This document shows positions 2,781-35,740 of a DNA stretch of 64,000 nt, one piece after another. The position numbers and the translations under genes were made by a program. The DNA is from a virus: positions 1-64,000 of the IMG/VR virus record IMGVR_UViG_3300042260_000483. The stretch is one strand, 5' to 3'. Positions within the stretch are counted from its first letter, which is position 1. Every line of letters begins with the position of its first letter. The notes beneath the pieces were generated by a model that made no database searches, was not told where the DNA came from, and saw only the letters and a list, made by a program, of their open reading frames with translations.

Positions 2781-2807
2781 GAAGGGTGGCTAGGGCATCC
2801 ACCCTTC
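2781..2807. promoter_or_regulatory. strong hairpin between genes
   Basis: Perfect 9-bp stem: gaagggtgg at 2781-2789 pairs with ccacccttc at 2799-2807 around a 9-nt loop. It lies just past the stop of the 2814-3080 gene and before the seven-paralog array. No long U-run follows on the minus strand, so it may be a weak terminator, an RNA processing site or a transcript-stabilising 3' end. Confidence 0.45.
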
Positions 2808-2813
2808 TGGTCT

Positions 2814-3080
2814 TTACTCTTCGATGAAATCTAAAGGTTCTTCAGTATCTAACCCTAACTCGATTAGTTCTTCTCTCACCTTCTTACTACCTCTACCGAT
2901 TAACCCTTCTGCTTCCCATGTATCTATTGCGATAATTGCGTGGGATTGTGTCACATACTTACGGGTATGGAATATCTCCTTCACCTTTGGGGTTTTAGTG
3001 ATAGTTACCATCTCTGGGAATTTCTCTGTGGGTGTAGGAGTGATAATGCAATTTCTGTGTTTTATTTCTGTCTTATTCAT
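2814..3080 (-). CDS. hypothetical protein, 88 aa
   Basis: Not recognised. It is a soluble, charged protein with a basic N-terminal half and an acidic C-terminus (LGLDTEEPLDFIEE). The segment AIIAIDTWEAEGLIGRGSKKVREEL looks helical. A plus-strand frame over the same bases is very serine-rich and hydrophobic and is judged a shadow. Confidence 0.65.
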   Translation of the reverse strand: MNKTEIKHRNCIITPTPTEKFPEMVTITKTPKVKEIFHTRKYVTQSHAIIAIDTWEAEGLIGRGSKKVREELIELGLDTEEPLDFIEE

Positions 3081-3114
3081 ATTCTGTTATATTGAGCTGT
3101 TATTAGTATTAGTG

Positions 3115-3705
3115 TTACGCAAGACCTAAGTAAGGTAATGCTTTAGAGATGTTGTTATCAGATACCTTATAAGATTTAACTCTCTTAATAGACTCTTCTA
3201 AGGAAAGAGGTCCCCATACATACTCACCGGCCATCATTCCTCGTATCATACGGATTACATCACCATAAGAACCGAAAGAAGGTTTGTTATTTACATGAAC
3301 GTATTTCACACCAGCTTCAATCTCTGTTCCTTTCTCACTCTTCAACCCACTATTATCGTAGTATTCAAAAGTCTCTTCCATTCCGTTGTATCTACCATAC
3401 TCAAATGAATCAGCGAAACGAGCGATATCTTTGTAGATACTACTCTCAACTTCAGAACCATCTACGTTACTCACATAGACATCTAAGGAGTTACCATTAG
3501 CGAAAGAAGAAGATGATACCGAACATACTACCTTTGGATATTTGGCTTTTACGAATTGTTTAACCAATGAACCTGCGATAGGACCATTTGCGTAGACCTT
3601 AGGAGTAGAAGGCTTACCCCAATAATCAGTAGTTCTTAAAGCCTCAGCTTTGATTTCAAACTTAATACCTTCGATGATTAACGCGATTTTCTTAGAATTT
3701 TTCAT
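3115..3705 (-). CDS. LPD29-like large-polyvalent-protein-associated domain protein
   Basis: 196 residues. The block IAGSLVKQFVKAKYPKVVCSVSSSSFANGNSLDVYV, then an acidic VDGSEVES step and FEYGRYNGMEE, resembles LPD29. That domain normally sits in very large phage or mobile-element polyproteins. Here it stands alone with a C-terminal helical extension. The role is unknown. It has its own promoter at 3742-3773. Confidence 0.6.
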   Translation of the reverse strand: MKNSKKIALIIEGIKFEIKAEALRTTDYWGKPSTPKVYANGPIAGSLVKQFVKAKYPKVVCSVSSSSFANGNSLDVYVSNVDGSEVESSIYKDIARFADSFEYGRYNGMEETFEYYDNSGLKSEKGTEIEAGVKYVHVNNKPSFGSYGDVIRMIRGMMAGEYVWGPLSLEESIKRVKSYKVSDNNISKALPYLGLA

Positions 3706-3741
3706 ATTGTTATCTTTTAATGTTTATCTCTTATTACTTAG

Positions 3742-3773
3742 CTAACATACGAAGAATATTTCACATATCCAAA
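3742..3773 (-). promoter_or_regulatory. class A promoter (TTTGG / TATGTTAG, GAGATA leader)
   Basis: On the minus strand TTTGG (3769-3773) is followed 19 nt later by TATGTTAG (3742-3749). The leader AAGTAATAAGAGATAAAC then leads into the 3705 start. At least ten near-identical units occur in the window. The layout matches Bacteroidota -33/-7 promoters with one change in the -7 box (TTTG to TTAG). Confidence 0.7.
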
Positions 3774-3795
3774 TATTTAGCCATTTATTTTTCAA

Positions 3796-4017
3796 TTATT
3801 TTAAGCCCCAATATCCTACCATCTTCTCCCACTCCATATGTGTGGCGAATACTGCGAAGTAGTTCTTACCTAAACTCTTAGCATACTTACCTGCAACACC
3901 TGCATCCTTAAATGGTAATGTATCGATTAAGTTGGTTTCTCTGTTGATAATGTTAATATCACCTTGACAGATGAAATAATGGGGATTCTCGCGGTTACTT
4001 AATAGTGTAGTATTCAT
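3796..4017 (-). CDS. hypothetical protein, 73 aa
   Basis: Not recognised. The sequence MNTTLLSNRENPHYFICQGDINIINRE... looks like a small mixed alpha/beta domain, ending in aromatic residues (MEWEKMVGYWGLK). It is preceded by its own class A promoter, so it is probably made at the same stage as its neighbours at 3115 and 4090. Confidence 0.65.
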   Translation of the reverse strand: MNTTLLSNRENPHYFICQGDINIINRETNLIDTLPFKDAGVAGKYAKSLGKNYFAVFATHMEWEKMVGYWGLK

Positions 4018-8668: not shown

Positions 8669-9235
8669 TTAAAATAAATCACTTATAACGTCCGATTCCA
8701 CTCTTTTTAGATATTTTTGTCTTTGCTCTGATGATACGAATGGGACACTCCAAAATTGTCTTGTTTTTGTTTTAAACCATCCAAAGACAAATGAATACAC
8801 TCCCATTACTAATCTTAATTTTACCGAATTCAAATACAATGAAACTACCGGTAGTGCAGGTGCACCATGTGTTAGATATGTTCTAACCTTTTTATCACTT
8901 AATAATGGTTTTGGGTATCCATACAATTTTGTAATTGGGACAAAGTTATATGCAAAACCAGGTGTAAATATTTGGTCAAAAAATGATTCCAATGCCGGTG
9001 TGCATCTAAACCACCATACCGGTGATATGATATAAATTCTATCTGCCCATTGAATTAATTCTTTATATTCTTTTACTTTTTCTTTTCCAAAATCAAATGT
9101 TGTATTTTCTTCATACAAATCAATCGTATAAACTTCTTCGTTATTTGTTTTTAAAGTGTTGTTAATCGTTCGTTGAATACCACTATGGCAAAAACTATTT
9201 TTGGCTGGATGTGATATTATTATCAGATTTTTCAT
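8669..9235 (-). CDS. NAD(P)H quinone reductase-like flavodoxin-fold protein
   Basis: 188 residues, Flavodoxin_2 family. MKNLIIISHPAKNSFCHSGI is the N-terminal FMN/FAD phosphate-binding strand and loop. SPVWWFRCTPALESFFDQIFTPGFAY is the characteristic flavin- and substrate-binding block, and THGAP occupies the third loop. Homologues reduce quinones or act as general-stress FMN reductases in the cytoplasm. This is unusual in a phage and may protect redox balance during infection. It sits next to the DUF2805 gene. Confidence 0.75.
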   Translation of the reverse strand: MKNLIIISHPAKNSFCHSGIQRTINNTLKTNNEEVYTIDLYEENTTFDFGKEKVKEYKELIQWADRIYIISPVWWFRCTPALESFFDQIFTPGFAYNFVPITKLYGYPKPLLSDKKVRTYLTHGAPALPVVSLYLNSVKLRLVMGVYSFVFGWFKTKTRQFWSVPFVSSEQRQKYLKRVESDVISDLF

Positions 9236-9236
9236 A

Positions 9237-9506
9237 TTATTTTTTACTTATTTTGTTATTTGAAATGGTTGTTTGCCTACTACATTTGAATCTGACAATT
9301 TCTTCATTTCTCTTTTTAAGGTGTTTTTGGCTTACACCCTCATTTACTCTTTTTCTCCATAGTTTAAAACTACTTTCTTTTAATTCACTTCGCATCAATT
9401 TTATTACATCGGATTCAGTTAATCCGAATTGAAATGTTATTGCCTCGAATGGAGTTCTATCTTCCCAAGCCATTTCAATGATACGGTCTATCTGCTCTAA
9501 CGTCAT
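9237..9506 (-). CDS. DUF2805 / TIGR03643 family protein
   Basis: 89 residues. The N-terminal two-thirds match this small family closely: MTLEQIDRIIEMAWEDRTPF, then FQFGLTESDVIKLMR, then SSFKLWRKRVNEG, and finally RFKC. It is a basic helix-turn-helix-like protein of unknown function, common in marine Bacteroidota and Proteobacteria. The family position is recognised, the function is not known, and acquisition from a host is likely. Confidence 0.75.
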   Translation of the reverse strand: MTLEQIDRIIEMAWEDRTPFEAITFQFGLTESDVIKLMRSELKESSFKLWRKRVNEGVSQKHLKKRNEEIVRFKCSRQTTISNNKISKK

Positions 9507-9508
9507 TT

Positions 9509-9661
9509 TTAAAATCGATTAAAAATCTCTTCGAAGTGTTTTTTTGCCTGTTCTTTTATCGAATCTATCAATTTTGGTTTGATTTCCGAATCTTTTTTTC
9601 CTTTAAGTCTTGCCTCTCGTATGTTAAAACTTACGATTTCTGGTTTTTTAGTTTCTTTCAT
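9509..9661 (-). CDS. small basic hypothetical protein, 50 aa
   Basis: MKETKKPEIVSFNIREARLKGKKDSEIKPKLIDSIKEQAKKHFEEIFNRF. Lys/Glu-rich and helical. It fits between the DUF2805 gene (2 bp gap) and the SGNH gene (4 bp gap). No family recognised. Confidence 0.55.
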   Translation of the reverse strand: MKETKKPEIVSFNIREARLKGKKDSEIKPKLIDSIKEQAKKHFEEIFNRF

Positions 9662-9665
9662 AATA

Positions 9666-10373
9666 TTAAATTAAATGGTCTGCCCATATTTTATGTGATA
9701 TTGCTGATGGATGATTTCGTTCTAATAAATCACCACCATTTTGTTTGATATAACTATACATAGTTTCACTTTTAAATTCAGGTGGTAATTGATTCCATAG
9801 TGATTTTAAATCAGTTTGATGTGTTGGTCTTCCATAAGAATCGATTAACGTATCTGGTTCATTAGGAAAATTATATTCATAAAACGTATTAAAAAAGTAA
9901 TATGGTATATCGTTTTTATCTAAAAAAGATGTCAATCCGATTATATGATTAAAAGTTCTGATATATGACGGAATATCTTCTGTTTGATTCAATACGAATT
10001 GGTCTTCGGTAGTTCTGTTTGAATCATTCTCACCCCATTTATCATATCCCACCCACAAACGTTCTTGTTGGTATTTCTCACCTGTCCACCATTCAAATCT
10101 TGTTGGTGATGTCCATCCAATTGTTATGAATAAATTATCAGATTTTACCCAACCCGTTTCTTCACTCCAAACAACTTTATTTTCTAACCAATGTGAAACA
10201 TCTCGCATAGTTTGGCGATAGATATAATCATTCGATACTCCGGCAGATGCGTTATTACAATCTTCCCATCCAAACTGATTTGCTATGTGATGTGAAAATC
10301 TTTCAGTTTGTTTAGTTTCCAATTCTGCACCCCATACTACTGAATCACCATGAGAATATAAAATTGTTTTCAT
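9666..10373 (-). CDS. SGNH/GDSL hydrolase-like protein 1
   Basis: 235 residues. Block I is YSHGDSVVWGAE with the presumed catalytic Ser. Block II corresponds to NNASAGVSNDY and carries the Gly. Block V is LERNHPSAISHKIWADHL with the presumed catalytic His. Such proteins remove or add acyl groups on glycans. No signal peptide is present, so it would act in the cytoplasm or in the virion. The start overlaps the stop of the 10370 glycosyltransferase (ATGA), linking it to sugar chemistry. Confidence 0.7.
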   Translation of the reverse strand: MKTILYSHGDSVVWGAELETKQTERFSHHIANQFGWEDCNNASAGVSNDYIYRQTMRDVSHWLENKVVWSEETGWVKSDNLFITIGWTSPTRFEWWTGEKYQQERLWVGYDKWGENDSNRTTEDQFVLNQTEDIPSYIRTFNHIIGLTSFLDKNDIPYYFFNTFYEYNFPNEPDTLIDSYGRPTHQTDLKSLWNQLPPEFKSETMYSYIKQNGGDLLERNHPSAISHKIWADHLI

Positions 10374-14488: not shown

Positions 14489-14707
14489 TTATTTATTTTC
14501 AGTGTATCTACCATAATTTATTTTTGACCAAATCCTCTCATAAAAATACATAATGAGTAACCCGGTTACATTCATAGCAATTGCTTTTATTAGATTTCCA
14601 TTAAAGAATCCAACTGATAAAATTGTATATGAATTTAATGTAGCAATCAATCTCCATAATATAGATTTAAGTAAACTTCGTTTCTTAGTTTCTACTATAT
14701 CACTCAT
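14489..14707 (-). CDS. DUF2061 membrane protein 1
   Basis: About 72 residues from the ATG at 14707 (MSDIVETKKRSLLKSILWRL). Two transmembrane helices: ATLNSYTILSVGFF and AIAMNVTGLLIMYFYERIW. The R-S-L-x-K-x-x-x-W-R opening and Y-E-R-I-W ending are typical of DUF2061. The family often sits beside sulfate-activation genes in bacteria, and a second copy here does so at 34.7 kb. It overlaps the upstream gene's stop. Function unknown. Confidence 0.75.
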   Translation of the reverse strand: MSDIVETKKRSLLKSILWRLIATLNSYTILSVGFFNGNLIKAIAMNVTGLLIMYFYERIWSKINYGRYTENK

Positions 14708-15111
14708 TACCAACTAATTTCCCAATCCTTAAATTCATCTGCGATACAATCAATTTTGTAATCTTTTCTACCACCAACTTTAGATTGAATTTGATTTTTT
14801 GCAGTATTTCGGATTCCGTTTAATCCGTGTGTAAGTAGTAATTTATTACCTGCATCTACTCCTGCTCTTGCATTAGATTCGTTCGTCCAAATATGTAAAT
14901 TCATCTGTGATAAAACTACAATTGCTCTGATAAATTCCCCATCCAATTCAAAATCACCTGATTCTAAAATTAAATTAATATCATGAACAATATCTTTGAT
15001 TTCATCACCATATTCAGATTTATGTTCGGTGATGAATACTTCTTTTAACTGAATAATTGATAATCTATCAATTAGTTCTCCCAATGTGGGTAAATATTTT
15101 CTTGTTTTCAT
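14707..15111 (-). CDS. conserved hypothetical protein, 134 aa
   Basis: MKTRKYLPTLGELIDRLSIIQLKEVFITEHKSEYGDEI is a motif I associate with small proteins beside glycosyltransferases in bacteria and phages, but I know no function for it. All-helical prediction, with conserved-looking NLHIWTNESNARAG. It overlaps neighbours by 1 nt on both sides. Confidence 0.6.
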   Translation of the reverse strand: MKTRKYLPTLGELIDRLSIIQLKEVFITEHKSEYGDEIKDIVHDINLILESGDFELDGEFIRAIVVLSQMNLHIWTNESNARAGVDAGNKLLLTHGLNGIRNTAKNQIQSKVGGRKDYKIDCIADEFKDWEISW

Positions 15112-15695
15112 TATATATTATTTGGGTTTATATCAATATTAGTTTTAGTTCCATCTGGTTGTGAATATACTATATGGGTTGGTTTCAATACAAAAGCACT
15201 AACTCCTCTTTTCAATTCATCAACATACTTTTTACCCAATCCCGGTTTCAAATATCCAATTGTCATATGTGGATGGTAATCTGGATATGAGGTGGTATGT
15301 GGTAATTTAGATAATTCTTTATTTGTTGTATGTAAGAACTCAACTCCATCAAATTGTGGTGCTGGTGGATATGCTACATCTAATTTTAATACATCAAATT
15401 TTTCGTTTTCAAAAAGTGATGGGTTATGGACTAAGCATTTACCAAAGGTAATTCCATTAAGAATTTCCACAATCGTTTTCAACTCAACTTCTTCATGTAA
15501 CCCATACAATAAAGTGCAATGAGGTTCGGTTTCCAAGCCATAACCACCATTATCATCTGCAGTATATAAATCTTCGGGTTTTATGTTATTTTGAAATGAT
15601 ACAAAATCCTTAATAGGATTAAAATATAACATTACACACCCATATTCATATACAGGTTTAGTTTCTTCTTTTAATAAATCGGTTAATCGTATCAT
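15111..15695 (-). CDS. 2H phosphoesterase with N-terminal capsid-targeting-like tag
   Basis: 194 residues. Two H-x-T motifs, EPHCTLLYGLH (His59, Thr61) and YHPHMTIGYL (His143, Thr145), define the 2H phosphoesterase/2'-5' RNA ligase-like fold. Relatives hydrolyse cyclic or 2'-5' phosphodiester bonds. Phage members include T4 Acb1, which destroys CBASS cyclic nucleotides. The first ten residues (MIRLTDLLKE) match the tag on the 38-44 kb proteins, predicting removal at K-E/E and packaging in the head. The fold is well supported; packaging and target are inference. Confidence 0.8.
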   Translation of the reverse strand: MIRLTDLLKEETKPVYEYGCVMLYFNPIKDFVSFQNNIKPEDLYTADDNGGYGLETEPHCTLLYGLHEEVELKTIVEILNGITFGKCLVHNPSLFENEKFDVLKLDVAYPPAPQFDGVEFLHTTNKELSKLPHTTSYPDYHPHMTIGYLKPGLGKKYVDELKRGVSAFVLKPTHIVYSQPDGTKTNIDINPNNI

Positions 15696-16807
15696 ATTTG
15701 ATTTGTTAGTATTTTTTTTAAAAATTCATGATGTGGTAGTGTTGTAGATTTTCCAAGTTCATATAACTTACGTTGATTGTGTTCAAAATAAGGTCTATTT
15801 TCCTCAATCCACCCATCAATATCCATTTTTATATTTTCAATGATTTTTTCAAAATCTTCAAAAGTTTCAGCCTTAGTTGAATCGTTAAATTTAAATCCAA
15901 ATTTTTCTAATTCCTCTAACCATATTTTATTAACAATTAACAAATATGGATGTGGTAGAACGAAACATTTCATAATCTTTTCAGTAAAGAAAAAATGTTC
16001 GTATTCAGTAAGAGGTATATCATGTGTTGGAGTAAATGTAATTGTTTCAAAAATTATTTGAATTTTAGCAGATAATGAATTTAGTATATTCCAATAATGA
16101 CCTGGTTTTCCTGGTCCATATAAATCAGTAGTAGTTTCAAAATTTTCTATTTCTTTATAATCTATACCTGTCAAATCATTTTTGAAAAATTTATTCAACA
16201 TATCATATCGAAGATTTCGACCATAATTTTTTCCAGTTTGTCCTAAATATGTTATGAAATCATTTTCCGAATTAGATGGTGGGGAATATCTAAGCATTGG
16301 AAATTGTTTGAAATTTTGCTGAAGAAACATAAACAAGATAGGTAGATATGTCAATCTATTAATTAATTTTGGATGATTTAATTTATAATATCTAGATGAA
16401 ATTGCGTAAGTTGATAATTCAGGTAAATTTAACCATTCTAATATTATATCACTTGTCATTGGGTAGTTCTGTTCACCATTATTATCAAGATATATATATT
16501 TGGTATGAGATGGTAAATCTTCAAAATATGTTTTAATCCTAGCAATATCAACCCTCAAATTATCTTTTAAGTCATTATTTCTATAAAACCCAGAAACGAA
16601 TTGTTGCATATGAATTTCGTCAATGATTACCAACACATTTTCATATAATTGAAAATTTTCAATTTTAGCGTTGTTTTCAAATGCTAATTTAGAATTCATA
16701 TTGTCGTTCATAAATTGAATTTCTACATTTTCCAATTCTAATGTTTTGTAAAATTCTAAATCTATTTTGTGTTGAAAGTTTTTTAATATAATTAATGTGT
16801 TTTTCAT
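15692..16807 (-). CDS. putative glycosyltransferase with GT10-like C-terminal motif
   Basis: 371 residues. The N-terminal half is an unrecognised Rossmann-like domain (TLIILKNFQHKI, ENVLVIIDEIH). The C-terminal half has YEHFFFTEKIMKCFVLPHPYL. This resembles the x-T-E-K-h-x-x-x-h-x-x-x-x-P block that binds GDP-sugar in fucosyltransferase-like GT-B enzymes. It overlaps its neighbours by 4 nt on each side. A sugar transfer role is inferred from the motif and the operon. Confidence 0.6.
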   Translation of the reverse strand: MKNTLIILKNFQHKIDLEFYKTLELENVEIQFMNDNMNSKLAFENNAKIENFQLYENVLVIIDEIHMQQFVSGFYRNNDLKDNLRVDIARIKTYFEDLPSHTKYIYLDNNGEQNYPMTSDIILEWLNLPELSTYAISSRYYKLNHPKLINRLTYLPILFMFLQQNFKQFPMLRYSPPSNSENDFITYLGQTGKNYGRNLRYDMLNKFFKNDLTGIDYKEIENFETTTDLYGPGKPGHYWNILNSLSAKIQIIFETITFTPTHDIPLTEYEHFFFTEKIMKCFVLPHPYLLIVNKIWLEELEKFGFKFNDSTKAETFEDFEKIIENIKMDIDGWIEENRPYFEHNQRKLYELGKSTTLPHHEFLKKILTNQI

Positions 16808-17535
16808 ATCGTAACTACTCCTTTTTTCTGAACTACTAATGTTGCGTTTTCGTTTGCAAATTCAATACTTTGTTCTATATCTAATGTTTTTAAATAACTA
16901 ATTACCAACGATGCCATAAACGTATCTCCTGCACCACTCAAATCTCTAACTTCAATATCATTGTTAACTGGGAAAGTTTTACCATTATACATTGCACCTC
17001 TTTCGGACATTGTAACTATTAACTTATCTTCCCAATCTTCATATTCCTCACCTTTACAATTTTCCCACTCCACTTCGTTAATTTTGATGAAAGTATAATC
17101 TCTCATTCTTTCATTAAGAGGTTTTTTAGTATCAATAAAAGTTAATGGATGTGATTCTGATATCTCTTTAATATCCTTATACGTTAAATATCCTTTATCA
17201 TAATCGGATACAATAACTGCATCATAATCTGAAAAAGGAACTCTTTTTATATCAAATGAATTGGAAACTTTATCATTACTATCAATTCTGATAATCATAT
17301 GATTGGCTTTCTCTTCAACGTATCTTGTCTTTGTGATTTGTTCTTTATTGGTGATTAACTCTACCTTTGTTGCACCTAATGCTTTTAAGTTAGCAACTAC
17401 GTTACCACTCATTCCTTGATTTGTGATGGTACGGGATGGTTCAAAGATTGGAACTGGTCCTTCTGGACACAATCGTTTACAATAACCATACACAAATACA
17501 TCTGTGCAACTATCTCCTATAACTAATATTTTCAT
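16804..17535 (-). CDS. PfkB-family sugar kinase, HldE/RfaE kinase-domain-like
   Basis: 243 residues. MKILVIGDSCTDVFVYGYCKRLCPEGPVPIFEP is typical of D-glycero-beta-D-manno-heptose-7-phosphate kinases, followed by GMSGNVVANLKALGA. The anion-hole and catalytic motif is DLSGAGDTFMASLV. It is shorter than the usual 310 or so residues and lacks the C-terminal adenylyltransferase of HldE. A candidate partner nucleotidyltransferase is encoded at 34.9 kb. It probably phosphorylates a sugar for the glycan pathway. Confidence 0.75.
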   Translation of the reverse strand: MKILVIGDSCTDVFVYGYCKRLCPEGPVPIFEPSRTITNQGMSGNVVANLKALGATKVELITNKEQITKTRYVEEKANHMIIRIDSNDKVSNSFDIKRVPFSDYDAVIVSDYDKGYLTYKDIKEISESHPLTFIDTKKPLNERMRDYTFIKINEVEWENCKGEEYEDWEDKLIVTMSERGAMYNGKTFPVNNDIEVRDLSGAGDTFMASLVISYLKTLDIEQSIEFANENATLVVQKKGVVTI

Positions 17536-18494
17536 TATATTTTTACGAAAAAATTTGAAGTTTTTAACTCCAAATAATTAGCATACTCCTTTTTTAAAAA
17601 ATGAAATATCACTTCTGGTTGTGTATTTTCTATTATTTTTATAACATTATTATATAAATGTTTATTAGATTCAATTTTTTGATTACGATTATTCCAAAAT
17701 TGATTTAAATCTACATTTGGTTGCAATGATGAAAAAAACTCACCTGCAGAATCTGAATTACAATCTTCCAAATCTATAATTTTAATTTTAGTTTTATCCG
17801 ATATATTGTGAATCAATTCAATATAATTATTCAAATAATTTTCAGTATGGATATCTTGTAATATTAAATTCCATTTTGCTTCAATTAAAAATGAAATATA
17901 AATATGTAAATGGGATTCAACAAATTCATCTATTGTATATAAATTAAATAATTCAATAAATTTATCAATATCAGAATCAGATACATTTTTTAATTTTTTC
18001 AATAATTCACGCTCAGTTTTATCAATTTTTAATACATCGATATATGCTGCTAATACTTGAATTAATCCAGAAAAAAATCTATCAATTGGATTTCTAACTA
18101 AAAAAACAATATCTTTATTTTCATTATTAAGTAATAACTTTGTAAAATTTTCACTTTTTTCTGAATTCAAAAAATCCGATAAATTATTCCAATTTTTATA
18201 GGTATCCGTTAAATTATAATTATCTTCAAAATCCCATGGAGTCCAAACATAGTTATTTTTTATTAAATAACTAAGTTCATTCATACCATTACACTCTTTA
18301 AATTGATAACGTTTAAATTGAATATCAATTTGCTTATTATCGGTATGGATATTGTTTGGATACGATGATAATTCTCTTAAAAATCTAGTTCCAACTTTTT
18401 TATAGTTAATAACGATTGCTTTTTCAAATAAACTAAGAGTAGGTTCGAACGTTACATTTGATTGAGATTCTAATATATTATTTATAACTTTCAT
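17535..18494 (-). CDS. sulfotransferase-family protein
   Basis: 319 residues. Residues 31-42 (YKKVGTRFLREL) fit the 5'-phosphosulfate loop of carbohydrate sulfotransferases, and residues 130-143 (VFLVRNPIDRFFSG) the 3'-phosphate-binding block. Enzymes of this family move sulfate from PAPS to glycans or other acceptors. An APS kinase for making PAPS is encoded at 35.3 kb. Strong Asn/Ile bias and diverged spacing lower certainty about the substrate. It overlaps the kinase gene by 1 nt. Confidence 0.7.
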   Translation of the reverse strand: MKVINNILESQSNVTFEPTLSLFEKAIVINYKKVGTRFLRELSSYPNNIHTDNKQIDIQFKRYQFKECNGMNELSYLIKNNYVWTPWDFEDNYNLTDTYKNWNNLSDFLNSEKSENFTKLLLNNENKDIVFLVRNPIDRFFSGLIQVLAAYIDVLKIDKTERELLKKLKNVSDSDIDKFIELFNLYTIDEFVESHLHIYISFLIEAKWNLILQDIHTENYLNNYIELIHNISDKTKIKIIDLEDCNSDSAGEFFSSLQPNVDLNQFWNNRNQKIESNKHLYNNVIKIIENTQPEVIFHFLKKEYANYLELKTSNFFVKI

Positions 18495-22667: not shown

Positions 22668-23879
22668 TTAAAACATTGGAATTTCATCAACTTCTTCTTC
22701 TTTTTGTTCTGTGAAGAGTTTTTCATTTGATTCATCTTTCACATACTTTTGAACTAATTGTTTTACATAAGTTCGTTCTGAATCTACACCACCATCATTT
22801 GAGAAGAATGGGAAGATTGAAATCTCAGCAGCTTCGAACAAATCAAACCCATCGTAAATCAACCCAGCCATTTCAACACTAGCACGAGTCGATACCATTG
22901 CGGTAACCTTACCAGAATCACTTAGTGATTGAACTCGTGTGTGATGTGCAATCTCAGCAATTGCTCGTAGATTATCTTCAGAAACTTCTGGAAACATATA
23001 GGTTAATAATCCTAATTCTTGTTCATCGTTTAGAACATCCATTTCAATGGTTACGAAACGGTCTAAGATTGCTCGGTCCATAACTCGAGTTGATGTATAT
23101 TCATTACCTATGTTAGCAGTTGCGATGAATGTAACACCTTCTGCAACCTTAACAATTGGTGAACCATCTGCCTCATCTAAACGTAGGTAACGTTGACCAC
23201 CATCTAAAACGGTCATTAAGATATTCCAAGCATCAGGGTGAGCACGGCTCATCTCATCTAATAAGATAACTGCGTTTGGGGTTTTGATTGCCGAAACGAA
23301 TGCTGATTGAGAGAAGAACGTTCCCTTATTTTTATCGAAGTGAGTGTTACCGATTAAAGTAGCACGAGGGTCTTGTGTTGCTCCTAAGTTGAAGTAGAAA
23401 TCAGGTCTATCTAATGCCTTAACCAACGCTTTTGCAGCCATTGTTTTACCACAACCAGCAGGACCAGTCATCATAATGTTTTTAGCACGAACTGCTGAAC
23501 GAATTAAGTATTTCCACTTAAGGTCGGTCATTACCATCTCGCGAGGTTTTAATGATACCGAACTATTGTGGATGAAATCCTTAACAGCAGAGTGGTCTAA
23601 ATTATTTTCCATTTGAACCTTACCATTATCCGTATCCATCGGAGCTACTAAATTATTATACACATCCATACTAACTTTTCGGAAGGTCTTTTTACCATTT
23701 TTATTTACATAAGCTTGAACAGCTTTACCTTCATTGAAGGCATCTTTACGAGTCATAGTTGTTGCACCTAAAGTTCCAACTTTATTACCTTTGGTATCAA
23801 TTAACTTAAATGAATTACCAAACGCTTCTACTTTGTAAACCTCATTAGCAACCAATCCTAAATTTAAATCCTTTTTCAT
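22668..23879 (-). CDS. MoxR/CobS-like AAA+ ATPase
   Basis: 403 residues. Roughly 115 N-terminal residues of unknown fold precede the AAA+ core: Walker A IMMTGPAGCGKTMAAKAL, Walker B AVILLDEMSRAHPDAWN, then sensor and arginine-finger segments (TFIATANIGNEYTSTRVMDRAILDRF). MoxR ATPases pair with VWA-domain proteins to remodel or metallate targets, and such a VWA gene lies just upstream. CobS-like ATPases are known in T4-like cyanophages. It has its own promoter and terminator, so dosage is set separately from the VWA partner. Confidence 0.85.
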   Translation of the reverse strand: MKKDLNLGLVANEVYKVEAFGNSFKLIDTKGNKVGTLGATTMTRKDAFNEGKAVQAYVNKNGKKTFRKVSMDVYNNLVAPMDTDNGKVQMENNLDHSAVKDFIHNSSVSLKPREMVMTDLKWKYLIRSAVRAKNIMMTGPAGCGKTMAAKALVKALDRPDFYFNLGATQDPRATLIGNTHFDKNKGTFFSQSAFVSAIKTPNAVILLDEMSRAHPDAWNILMTVLDGGQRYLRLDEADGSPIVKVAEGVTFIATANIGNEYTSTRVMDRAILDRFVTIEMDVLNDEQELGLLTYMFPEVSEDNLRAIAEIAHHTRVQSLSDSGKVTAMVSTRASVEMAGLIYDGFDLFEAAEISIFPFFSNDGGVDSERTYVKQLVQKYVKDESNEKLFTEQKEEEVDEIPMF

Positions 23880-32762: not shown

Positions 32763-33800
32763 TTATTTTTCATCCCTAACTACATCCAATGTGACACAAT
32801 GAGGTCCTCCACTAAACGTTCGTGCATGTCTCATCTTTGTTGGAATAGATTCAATTCCCCACTTTTTCAATTCCATCATTAAAAGAGTTTGGTGTTCTTC
32901 TACCATACAAAGTTTATCGTTTATTGGTAAAATATTCATTCCTAACCAGGGTGATGCAGGACACCAATCTTCTAATACTTGTGTTGGATATGGTTCGGGT
33001 GCCCAAATCTTATCGAAATCTTTTAAAAATTCGGGTAAGTTTTGCCATCTAACTCTAGCCGGATTCAAAAGAACCTTACCTTCACCTAAAAATACAAAGG
33101 TAGTATCGATGTGTATATATGCGTAAACATTTTCTGCTAGATGAACATTGTATTCATTACCGAAGGTTTCTTTACAATAAATTTCTAACCATTTTGCACC
33201 ATCCTTATTACCTGTATTTGAAACTAAATAAAGAATATCATTATTATGTTTGATTACGTTCGCAGCATCAAATACTGGTTCACCATCTAATAGAGTTGGT
33301 ATTGATAAATCTTCTCTCTGATAAATTGAATCTAATAATTTTGGTTTTGGTGCATCTACCCAATGATTCGGGTCAAATAAAGGTTTACAAGTCTCTGCTT
33401 CATTTGAACGATGGCGTAGTGTCATGGGTGTTGCAATTACCTTATCATTTACCACAAACATTGAATCTCTTGGACAATAATTGTAATAACCATCTACTTC
33501 CCAATTTTCAGTTATAATCGGTTGTGAGAAATCTCTAACCTCTGGTCTATGAACTTTTACTCCTAATGAACGAAGTGTATTCGCTATCCCATCTAAATCT
33601 TCGCGAGTTTCATCTATTAATTTTTGAGGATATACCCCACTTGGTCTATTAGCAAATTCTTCATCGGATAAATGTGCGTAATCAATTGAATGTAAACACT
33701 TATCTCCTTTAGTTGGTACCTGTGCATAATCTGCAGTTCCTACTATAATTTCTCTTAATTGTCCCCATTCATTTCGGACATTCGGTTTTATCAATTCCAT
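32763..33800 (-). CDS. amidinotransferase (glycine/inosamine amidinotransferase family)
   Basis: 345 residues. NEWGQLREIIVGTAD opens the family. YNYCPRDSMFVVNDKVIATPM and YAYIHIDTTFVFLGEGKVLLNP give the Asp/His active-site positions. HARTFSGGPHCVTLDVVRDE carries the nucleophilic Cys335, ten residues from the end. These enzymes move an amidino group from arginine to an amine such as glycine, lysine or an aminocyclitol. It is complete. Its acceptor in a phage is unclear: an amino sugar, a polyamine or a modified base are possibilities. Confidence 0.85.
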   Translation of the reverse strand: MELIKPNVRNEWGQLREIIVGTADYAQVPTKGDKCLHSIDYAHLSDEEFANRPSGVYPQKLIDETREDLDGIANTLRSLGVKVHRPEVRDFSQPIITENWEVDGYYNYCPRDSMFVVNDKVIATPMTLRHRSNEAETCKPLFDPNHWVDAPKPKLLDSIYQREDLSIPTLLDGEPVFDAANVIKHNNDILYLVSNTGNKDGAKWLEIYCKETFGNEYNVHLAENVYAYIHIDTTFVFLGEGKVLLNPARVRWQNLPEFLKDFDKIWAPEPYPTQVLEDWCPASPWLGMNILPINDKLCMVEEHQTLLMMELKKWGIESIPTKMRHARTFSGGPHCVTLDVVRDEK

Positions 33801-33803
33801 AAC

Positions 33804-34682
33804 TTATATAACTTTTGGTATAATATATTTTGTGTTTTTGTAGGTTTCCCAATCTATTTCTTTAATTGGTGTATCCAACATTCCATCGTTTACCAATTTA
33901 TTATAAATTACATTTGCAATCAGTTTATTACCCTTTAACCCAATGTGCATATCGTTTGATTGATGACCAGTTTCATCTTTAATTGTTAATTTATTTACAA
34001 ATGAAAAATCCATCATATCTTTTGTTTGTTGAAAATATTTTCCATCTCCGAATAATAATTCACATGATTTTCGATACTCATGATTCTGTGGTGTCATTGT
34101 AAAATAATAATTTATATTTTTGGATTCTAAATATGCAAGAAACAAATCTACCATTCTTCTATGTTCATCAACTTCATTTTTAATATCAAAAAAATCAGTT
34201 AAATAAGTTTCAAAAAAAGGGTCATAGGTTTCTAATAATTTAATAGTTTCATCCGAATCATAATTGTAATGATTTGCAGTTGCTAAGAAAACTGCTTTAT
34301 CATTTTCATCAATCTGATAATTACAAATTATATAATCATTTATTTTCTTAAAGAAAAATTCTCTTCTACCTAATCCAGTAATTTCAAATATAAAAATATG
34401 TTCATCTTTATTAAAACCATGTGAATCAATAATTTCATATGATTTTCTAATTACTCTTTCATTACCACATCCTTGTTTTCCAAAATTATTAACCTTTACA
34501 TTTTTTGAAACTAACTTTTGTATTTGTCCTGGATATGAAAAGTTAAAAATGGTTTTTTCTTCGTTTGTTATATGGCCATACAATTTATTAATGAACCACC
34601 CTTGTGTAGGTGAATCGAATTCGAAACCACCTCCAGCAGTGTTTGATGTTCCAAAACAATTTATGTATTTAATTTTTGTCAT
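33804..34682 (-). CDS. SGNH/GDSL hydrolase-like protein 5
   Basis: 292 residues. YINCFGTSNTAGGGFEFDSP is block I (Ser in GTSN), NNFGKQGCGNERVI block II, and QSNDMHIGLKGNKLIANVIY supplies the terminal Asp-x-His. It overlaps the DUF2061 start by 14 nt, repeating the SGNH/DUF2061 arrangement at 13.6-14.7 kb. Near the sulfate-activation genes, so it may act on the same glycan. Confidence 0.65.
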   Translation of the reverse strand: MTKIKYINCFGTSNTAGGGFEFDSPTQGWFINKLYGHITNEEKTIFNFSYPGQIQKLVSKNVKVNNFGKQGCGNERVIRKSYEIIDSHGFNKDEHIFIFEITGLGRREFFFKKINDYIICNYQIDENDKAVFLATANHYNYDSDETIKLLETYDPFFETYLTDFFDIKNEVDEHRRMVDLFLAYLESKNINYYFTMTPQNHEYRKSCELLFGDGKYFQQTKDMMDFSFVNKLTIKDETGHQSNDMHIGLKGNKLIANVIYNKLVNDGMLDTPIKEIDWETYKNTKYIIPKVI

Positions 34683-34890
34683 CTTTCTTTAGACCATATT
34701 TAATCCACTTATACCATACTCGTTCATGTAGATAATATTGAATCGGTTTATACACCAATTCTGCAATACCAAACGCAGTTCCAACTTCAATTGAACCACT
34801 TATCCACCACATCAAAAGAAACCCTACAAGGGTACTTAAAATACGATAGGAGATGGTTTTAGCAATATGACGTTTAGGTTGGACTATCAT
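34669..34890 (-). CDS. DUF2061 membrane protein 2
   Basis: 73 residues. KRHIAKTISYRILSTLVGFLLMWWISG and FGIAELVYKPIQYYLHERVWYKWIKYG are the two conserved helices. In bacteria DUF2061 proteins are often encoded with or fused to sulfate-activation enzymes. Here it directly follows the nucleotidyltransferase and APS kinase genes. Possibly a membrane anchor or transporter subunit for the pathway (inference). Confidence 0.8.
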   Translation of the reverse strand: MIVQPKRHIAKTISYRILSTLVGFLLMWWISGSIEVGTAFGIAELVYKPIQYYLHERVWYKWIKYGLKKDDKN

Positions 34891-35270
34891 TATCCTTTAT
34901 TTTCATCGTAGGTTAATGAACCATCTGGTTTCATATGACCAGTTCTGATTGCAGTTCCGCTAATTGATGCAATATCAGTTGGTGGTTCGTGGTATATGAC
35001 ATCATACCCAACTCCTCTACCATAATTTACTGATTCGATATCTGGTATGATTGAAATGTATAATCTACCCGTAGATAAATAACCTTTTAATTCTTCTGTC
35101 AAATTATCTAATATTTCTTTTGCAGTTTTGGGATTGTTATCATCTCTATCAACATCTCTAATTGCAATCCAAACATTATTACCTTTTTGGAATTGTTGAT
35201 CAATTAACCATTGATGACCAGAATGCCAGTTTTGCCATCTACCGATGTAAAGTGCGTATTTTTTATTCAT
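34890..35270 (-). CDS. small nucleotidyltransferase (HxGH / ISGTxxR)
   Basis: 126 residues. YIGRWQNWHSGHQWLI (His16-Ser-Gly-His19) is the nucleotide-binding signature of the nucleotidylyltransferase superfamily. SISGTAIRTG (103-110) is the second conserved motif. The pattern is close to NMN adenylyltransferases, but ISGTxxR is also seen in ATP sulfurylases. It sits between APS kinase and DUF2061 with 1-nt overlaps. Options: a minimal ATP sulfurylase-like enzyme, a sugar adenylyltransferase pairing with the HldE-like kinase, or an NMNAT. Function open. Confidence 0.75.
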   Translation of the reverse strand: MNKKYALYIGRWQNWHSGHQWLIDQQFQKGNNVWIAIRDVDRDDNNPKTAKEILDNLTEELKGYLSTGRLYISIIPDIESVNYGRGVGYDVIYHEPPTDIASISGTAIRTGHMKPDGSLTYDENKG

Positions 35271-35740
35271 TATAATTTTTTTAATTTATTCAAATGATTT
35301 ATTAATTTTGAAAATGAAATATCCGGTGAATCTTTTGTAGTATTCACATCGATGAAATTTACTTGAGGGGATTCGTAATCTTTAACGTGGAAATGATCAC
35401 GTTCTCTAGGTTCGGTTGTGTGGACGTAAATCTCAACCATATCTGGTCCGATTTTATCTTTCAACTCTTCCCGTAGTTCGATGAATGGTGCAACTAATGA
35501 AACGACAACATCACATCTATTTAAGTGTAGATATTCAACTATTGTCTGTGCAGTTCTGATATTATTCTTTCTACCTTCTTCAGAATAATCTTTATTATTA
35601 GTAATTTCACGCAGATGATCACCATCTAAATGAAATACGTTTTTACGCCAATTGCGTTTTTCTGTTTCTAAAAACTTATGTAACTTTTTACCTAAGACAG
35701 TTTTACCTGCTCCTGGTTGTCCTGTAAACCAATATATCAT
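35270..35740 (-). CDS. cysC: adenylylsulfate (APS) kinase
   Basis: 156 residues, slightly short for CysC. Walker A WFTGQPGAGKTVLGKKL, then FHLDGDHLREITNNKDYSEEGRKNNIR (APS-binding DGD and R-x-x-N-I-R), VVSLVAPFIELREEL and MVEIYVHTT. It makes PAPS from APS and ATP in the cytoplasm. First gene of a three-gene sulfation module ending in DUF2061. The sulfotransferase-like gene at 17.5 kb is the likely consumer. Confidence 0.85.
   Translation of the reverse strand: MIYWFTGQPGAGKTVLGKKLHKFLETEKRNWRKNVFHLDGDHLREITNNKDYSEEGRKNNIRTAQTIVEYLHLNRCDVVVSLVAPFIELREELKDKIGPDMVEIYVHTTEPRERDHFHVKDYESPQVNFIDVNTTKDSPDISFSKLINHLNKLKKL

Follow-up and report, generated by a model that had tools for sequence, protein, structure and literature searches.

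The window analyzed here, the whole stretch of 64,000 nucleotides under study, comes from an IMG/VR virus record of 86 kb. It encodes an APS-kinase-like protein, a small HxGH nucleotidyltransferase (NT), and a DUF2061 protein in succession (Table 1), and inspection of its ORFs shows an overlap of 1 nt at both the kinase/NT and the NT/DUF2061 junctions. The DUF2061 protein matches its Pfam family at 57.2 bits (E = 2.3e-15). By its coordinates, an adjoining gene whose product looks by eye like an SGNH hydrolase shares 14 nt with the DUF2061 gene, and the operon may extend to it; SGNH-like genes resembling this one sit between the kinase and NT genes in the related loci L002, L004, and L009. The gene at 32763-33800 (minus strand) encodes an amidinotransferase-like protein (phrog_25854) with a weak C-terminal match to arginine deiminase, and it also adjoins the cassette in L002, L005, and L012.

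Table 1. Features of the window discussed in the text.
Feature	Coordinates	Strand	Remarks
APS-kinase-like P-loop kinase (CysC-like)	35270..35740	-	156 aa, short lid; Pfam APS_kinase
Small HxGH nucleotidyltransferase (NT)	34890..35270	-	126 aa; motifs and AF2 fold; proposed ATP-sulfurylase substitute
DUF2061 small membrane protein	34669..34890	-	73 aa; Pfam PF09834
Candidate further operon gene, SGNH-hydrolase-like by eye	33804..34682	-	Module membership uncertain
Probable PAPS-dependent sulfotransferase	17535..18494	-	319 aa; both PAPS-loop motifs
HldE-like heptose-7-phosphate kinase domain	16804..17535	-	NCBIfam rfaE_dom_I 5.1e-35, phrog_8133 4e-81

Scans of IMG/VR recovered 339 kinase-related and 540 NT-related stretches. 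The kinase-NT-DUF2061 order and strand are kept in 110 of 160 phage loci (some records are present twice), mostly with short overlaps, and the phage set holds 100 unique kinase, 109 unique NT, and 98 unique DUF2061 sequences. Some other phage loci have NT and DUF2061 but no kinase close by, and some have only the kinase. The order kept in 110 loci leads us to reject chance gene order as an account of the trio. The first-pass annotation had described the three genes as one overlapping operon and had suggested looking for the module in related phages; the ORFs, their overlaps, and the recovery of the trio in these IMG/VR loci bear that description out. The closest relative of the window, L002, has a kinase 96% identical to ours and the same neighbors.

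The trio of relatives is sometimes interrupted by genes for sulfotransferase-like, methyltransferase-like, or SGNH-like proteins, small HAD phosphatases, or 2OG-Fe(II) oxygenases. A small HAD protein resembling the 3'-phosphatase domain of polynucleotide kinase lies between kinase and NT in L024, L027, L047, L065, and many more; as a speculation, such trio-internal proteins could remove the 3'-phosphate from PAP, the by-product of sulfotransferases. Outside the window, the same virus record (L299) encodes, judged by sequence, IMP-dehydrogenase-like (2786-3856), GroEL-like (8670-10304), and asparagine-synthetase-like (15712-17217) genes.

The kinase of the window matches Pfam APS_kinase (PF01583) at 58.3 bits (E = 1.2e-15), above the gathering cutoff of 21.1, and its best PDB match is 5cb6, a "probable adenylyl-sulfate kinase" (1.4e-10). 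Across the 100 unique sequences, GQPGxGKT (the P-loop), DGDxxR, and NKDYSxxGRxxN are near-invariant, and the substrate motifs of APS kinases (DGDxxR and the GFSxxDRxxN type) are kept. Most of the canonical lid (the RDPKGLYKKAR region) is gone from the window kinase, which scores below the NCBIfam apsK cutoff (58.8 versus 138.7 bits). On family similarity, we consider this protein very probably an APS kinase, with catalysis by the short-lid enzyme presumed.

The second protein is more distant from known families. Pfam gives a weak match to CTP_transf_like (0.14) and none to the ATP sulfurylase family Sat (PF01747). NT also matches NMN adenylyltransferase models, far under the NCBIfam NadM/NMNAT cutoffs (30.4 versus 127 bits and 27.3 versus 181.2 bits), and in profile comparison the solved structures closest to it are those of NMN adenylyltransferases rather than ATP sulfurylase. 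Near-invariant among 109 sequences are GRWQxxHxGH, PDIxSxxYGRGVGY, and ISxTxIR. With archaeal NMN adenylyltransferase NadM, NT shares the fold, GRxQxxHxGH, and SGTxxR, but it is shorter, carries the conserved PDIxSxxYGRGVGY, and falls far short of the NadM models. By eye, the Sat motifs QxRNPxHxGH, GRDHAG, and SGTxxR come in the same order as GRWQxxHxGH, YGRGVGY, and ISGTxIR of NT, although the RNP part differs. An AF2 model of NT, built from 41 sequences, reached a pLDDT of 87. Its VIA-align search placed NMN and phosphopantetheine adenylyltransferases in a tie at the top (Z of about 9.9; 1m8g and 1ej2 at Z 9.8), and a Foldseek search placed ATP sulfurylase 8a8g at rank 50; 8a8g is absent among the VIA-align matches listed. 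By its modeled fold, NT is an HxGH-superfamily adenylyltransferase, and this fold does not point to a particular substrate.

Both cassette domains also occur in a single protein. The phage family phrog_10255, annotated "kinase" and found in Stenotrophomonas phages, matches the cassette kinase with its N-terminal half and NT with its C-terminal half; it differs from the cassette in being fused, in having only ∼35% identity over the NT part, and in its neighbors (NADAR and DNA methyltransferase genes). The phage fusions carry YGRDVGY at the position of YGRGVGY in NT. The same kinase-NT order is found in a fusion on a Staskawiczbacteria contig.

In a single scan of bacteria and archaea, NT relatives turned up at 47 loci. 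These belong to Marinimicrobia, to SAR86 and further marine Gammaproteobacteria, and to SAR116, Marinoscillum, Omnitrophota, and WWE3, among other groups; one of them, L161, appears to be a phage contig that was assigned to a bacterial genome during binning. An APS-kinase-type kinase is adjacent to or fused with NT in 44 of the 47 loci. L163 pairs NT with a canonical APS kinase (236 bits). In the Omnitrophota fusions, which have the order NT-kinase, the APS-kinase lid is complete. Polysaccharide loci surround some of the cellular pairs.

The genomes compared are assemblies from single cells or metagenomes and carry no completeness values; in their gene content, NT goes with sulfotransferases, and known ATP sulfurylases are mostly missing from the NT-bearing ones. 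Among 42 NT-bearing cellular genomes, 38 have Sulfotransfer_3, one (G001) has the known ATP sulfurylase Sat (PF01747) together with NT, and two have strong matches to PF01507 (CysD/CysH-type). Both of the latter are Omnitrophota, in which we read the match as a CysD-type protein alongside the NT-kinase fusion. In the SAR86 order (101 genomes), 49 genomes have NT and 52 have Sulfotransfer_3: both are present in 46, NT alone in 3, Sulfotransfer_3 alone in 6, and neither in 46, an agreement of 92/101 whose Fisher P value of 2e-18 is inflated by common ancestry. A sulfotransferase gene lies at most 3.5 kb from NT in 21 of the 49. The sole genome of this set with a real CysD match, G123, is sulfotransferase positive and NT negative. 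In the Marinimicrobia order (121 genomes), NT occurs in 15 and Sat in 48, with an overlap of 1 (Fisher P = 0.004, likewise inflated by common ancestry). Three Pfam sulfotransferase families are found near the cellular pair: Sulfotransfer_5 in Marinimicrobia, Sulfotransfer_3 in SAR86 and Omnitrophota, and Sulfotransfer_2 in SAR116.

The resemblance of NT to NMN adenylyltransferases, its best profile matches, raises the possibility that the pair salvages NAD, with the kinase acting on nicotinamide riboside and NT on NMN, as a NadR-like pair that counters NAD-depleting defenses. The pairing of a kinase with an NMN adenylyltransferase does resemble NadR; in Stenotrophomonas phage Bhz60 (L297:5151-6327), the gene immediately ahead of the kinase-NT fusion encodes NADAR, and for this branch an NAD-linked role may hold; and a NadD match above the family cutoff is missing in most NT-bearing SAR86 genomes (G022-G042). 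However, NT and NadD occur together in many Marinimicrobia and two SAR86 genomes, canonical APS kinases are among the NT partners, NT is ∼50 residues shorter than archaeal NMN adenylyltransferases, and the association and adjacency with sulfotransferases are strong. We therefore consider NAD salvage an unlikely function of the pair, although in SAR86, where a clear NadD is mostly missing, it may play a part.

Scanning 1,966 ORFs for both PAPS-loop motifs gave 19 matches versus 0 in shuffles, with a double-loop pattern that had been widened to admit the KVGTR of the window protein; the 19 include some duplicates and one match, in L201, that looks false by sequence. Sulfotransferase-type genes are contiguous with the cassette in six relatives, directly upstream of cysC in L002 and L030, in the cysC/NT gap in L007, and in the NT/DUF2061 gap in L059, L065, and L067. 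The L002 protein (L002:5175-5999; 274 aa) has the loops KVAST and RNPINRLKSS, and its gene ends 1 nt before the kinase start. In Pfam searches of the phage sulfotransferase-type proteins, L053 gave a clear Sulfotransfer_1 match (1.3e-14), L129 a marginal one, and the others nothing that counts.

An independent comparison started from phages chosen through an ATPase gene that is unrelated to the cassette (22668-23879 in the window); 49 records with a length of 45 kb or more were searched, and only strong NT matches were counted. An A3-type sulfotransferase is present in 6 of the 17 records with NT and in 0 of the 32 without it (Fisher P = 9e-4, an optimistic value as the records are partly related). 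Among records of at least 100 kb, the corresponding figures are 6/8 and 0/9 (P = 0.002, optimistic for the same reason). Taking phages and cells together, we conclude with good confidence that the kinase-NT pair serves sulfotransferases.

For the window virus, the candidate sulfotransferase lies some distance from the cassette. The first-pass annotation had located both PAPS-binding loops in this protein, and the ORF and both motifs are indeed present: a 5'-PSB loop, KKVGTRFL, near residue 33 and a 3'-PB loop, FLVRNPIDRFFSG, near residue 134 (RNPIDRFFS). The family search that it had proposed came out negative: no sulfotransferase family was matched in the HMM search, with no Pfam sulfotransferase match at E values up to 1, and PHROGs, NCBIfam, and PDB sequence searches were likewise without support. 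The sole recognizable relative is the L002 protein described above (E = 7.9e-5, a compositionally biased match). IMG/VR scans with either protein or with their alignment found no further members, INPHARED held no relatives of the window protein, and a profile of the pair showed no relation to the other phage sulfotransferase groups, whose alignment is too diverse for a collection scan. Judged by sequence, the window/L002 pair and the other phage sulfotransferases may be separate families. A single-sequence AF2 model of the window protein had a pLDDT of 32 and is meaningless. On its loop motifs, we regard this protein as probably a sulfotransferase. Thus, of the earlier proposal that the phage couples PAPS supply to a sulfotransferase, the coupling is well supported by related phages and cellular genomes, while the sulfotransferase of the window itself is backed by motif and a weak match only.

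The neighborhood of this protein offers a hint about the acceptor. The start of the HldE-like gene overlaps the stop of the candidate sulfotransferase gene, and four Marinimicrobia loci likewise have HldE-like genes adjoining the pair of kinase and NT; because of these two arrangements, one may reasonably guess that the molecule sulfated is a glycan containing heptose.

PAPS is the universal sulfate donor of cells. In the pathway that we propose, NT would adenylylate sulfate (ATP + sulfate -> APS + PPi) in place of the known ATP sulfurylases, the kinase, by its family similarity, would phosphorylate APS at the 3' position (APS + ATP -> PAPS), and phage or host sulfotransferases, by their association with the pair, would spend the PAPS on a glycan or another molecule. 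In the window virus, the candidate for this last step would be the protein encoded next to the heptose-kinase-like gene. Genomic context makes it reasonably likely that NT, for which the first-pass annotation offered no role, makes APS and so acts one step ahead of the kinase, and we find it fairly probable that the cassette as a whole is a split, compact PAPS synthase in which NT replaces ATP sulfurylase and which feeds sulfotransferases.

Known PAPS synthetases are fusions in both domain orders. Like the cassette, these bifunctional enzymes (Sat-CysC fusions and animal PAPSS) couple or fuse an HxGH nucleotidyltransferase to an APS kinase, in both orders, for sulfotransferases; in contrast to theirs, the nucleotidyltransferase of the cassette has ∼110 to 130 aa, has no PF01747 match, and finds its closest sequence relatives among NMN adenylyltransferases. 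With the enterobacterial CysDN and CysC, the cassette has the CysC-type kinase step in common, but no CysD homolog was found with the cassette, and the first step would fall to an unrelated small enzyme.

CysC relatives need not act on APS. Cj1415, the cytidine-diphosphoramidate kinase of Campylobacter, is a CysC relative with another substrate, and the nucleotidyltransferase in that organism has a different fold from NT. The pair could by this precedent activate another small anion or a sugar phosphate for glycan decoration, with an indirect link to sulfotransferases, and the polysaccharide loci around some cellular pairs would suit such a role. Several NT partners, however, have canonical APS-kinase motifs including the lid, three sulfotransferase families colocalize with the pair, and the difference in fold weakens the Campylobacter parallel, so that we consider this reading highly unlikely.

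A further alternative comes from the literature on phage cysC, which has been found in many, often large, aquatic phages, is transcribed in situ, and has been read as serving assimilatory sulfate reduction (PMC10914622, PMC9529941). The gene class is that of the cassette; the portions of these reports considered here do not mention NT or DUF2061 partners or operon-linked sulfotransferases. On this reading, which the clear CysC similarity of our kinase also favors, the pair would make PAPS from host APS mainly for cysteine supply, and NT would do something else. Yet searches with four query proteins found CysD/CysH-type proteins neither in the 86-kb record, itself a fragment, nor in the flanks of related loci, strong matches of this type are mostly missing in NT-bearing cellular genomes, and the fixed NT partner and operon-linked sulfotransferases are left unexplained. 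Assimilation is thus also an improbable main role, and we retain PAPS synthesis for sulfotransferases as the favored one.

Phage sulfotransferases are known as well, for example from phages of OM43 and from Synechococcus phage S-SRM01, with a function stated as unclear (PMC10580990). These too are marine phage genes, and the part of that report considered here mentions no PAPS-supplying partner. Searches of the open-access literature found no account of a paired NT, DUF2061, or the operon, and nothing was found there on DUF2061 with phage or on SAR86 with sulfotransferase. The first-pass view that phage PAPS supply plus a sulfotransferase is not an established system is therefore fair for the operon but needs amending for its parts, as phage cysC (PMC10914622, PMC9529941) and phage sulfotransferases (PMC10580990) had each already been reported.

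In its broadest form, our proposal is that NT represents a third, previously unrecognized kind of ATP sulfurylase, forming with APS kinase a minimal PAPS synthase in hundreds of aquatic phages, in the streamlined marine bacteria SAR86 and Marinimicrobia, and in Omnitrophota, where it feeds sulfotransferases, and that phages sulfate glycans during infection; we regard this as evenly poised between right and wrong. If it is true, SAR86 and Marinimicrobia have a means of sulfate activation that their genomes seem to lack, and many phage cysC genes counted as sulfate assimilation mark phage-directed sulfation, probably of glycans. NT is a small enzyme that can be assayed directly for ATP sulfurylase activity.

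Two other genes of the window deserve mention. A second, divergent DUF2061-like protein is encoded at 14489-14713 (minus strand), beside a region that contains a fragment of a DegT aminotransferase as well as a 2OG-Fe(II) oxygenase. The gene at 15111-15695 (minus strand) encodes a 2H-phosphoesterase-like protein with weak matches to anti-CBASS Acb1 (8.7e-4) and to phage RNA ligase/2'-5' families.
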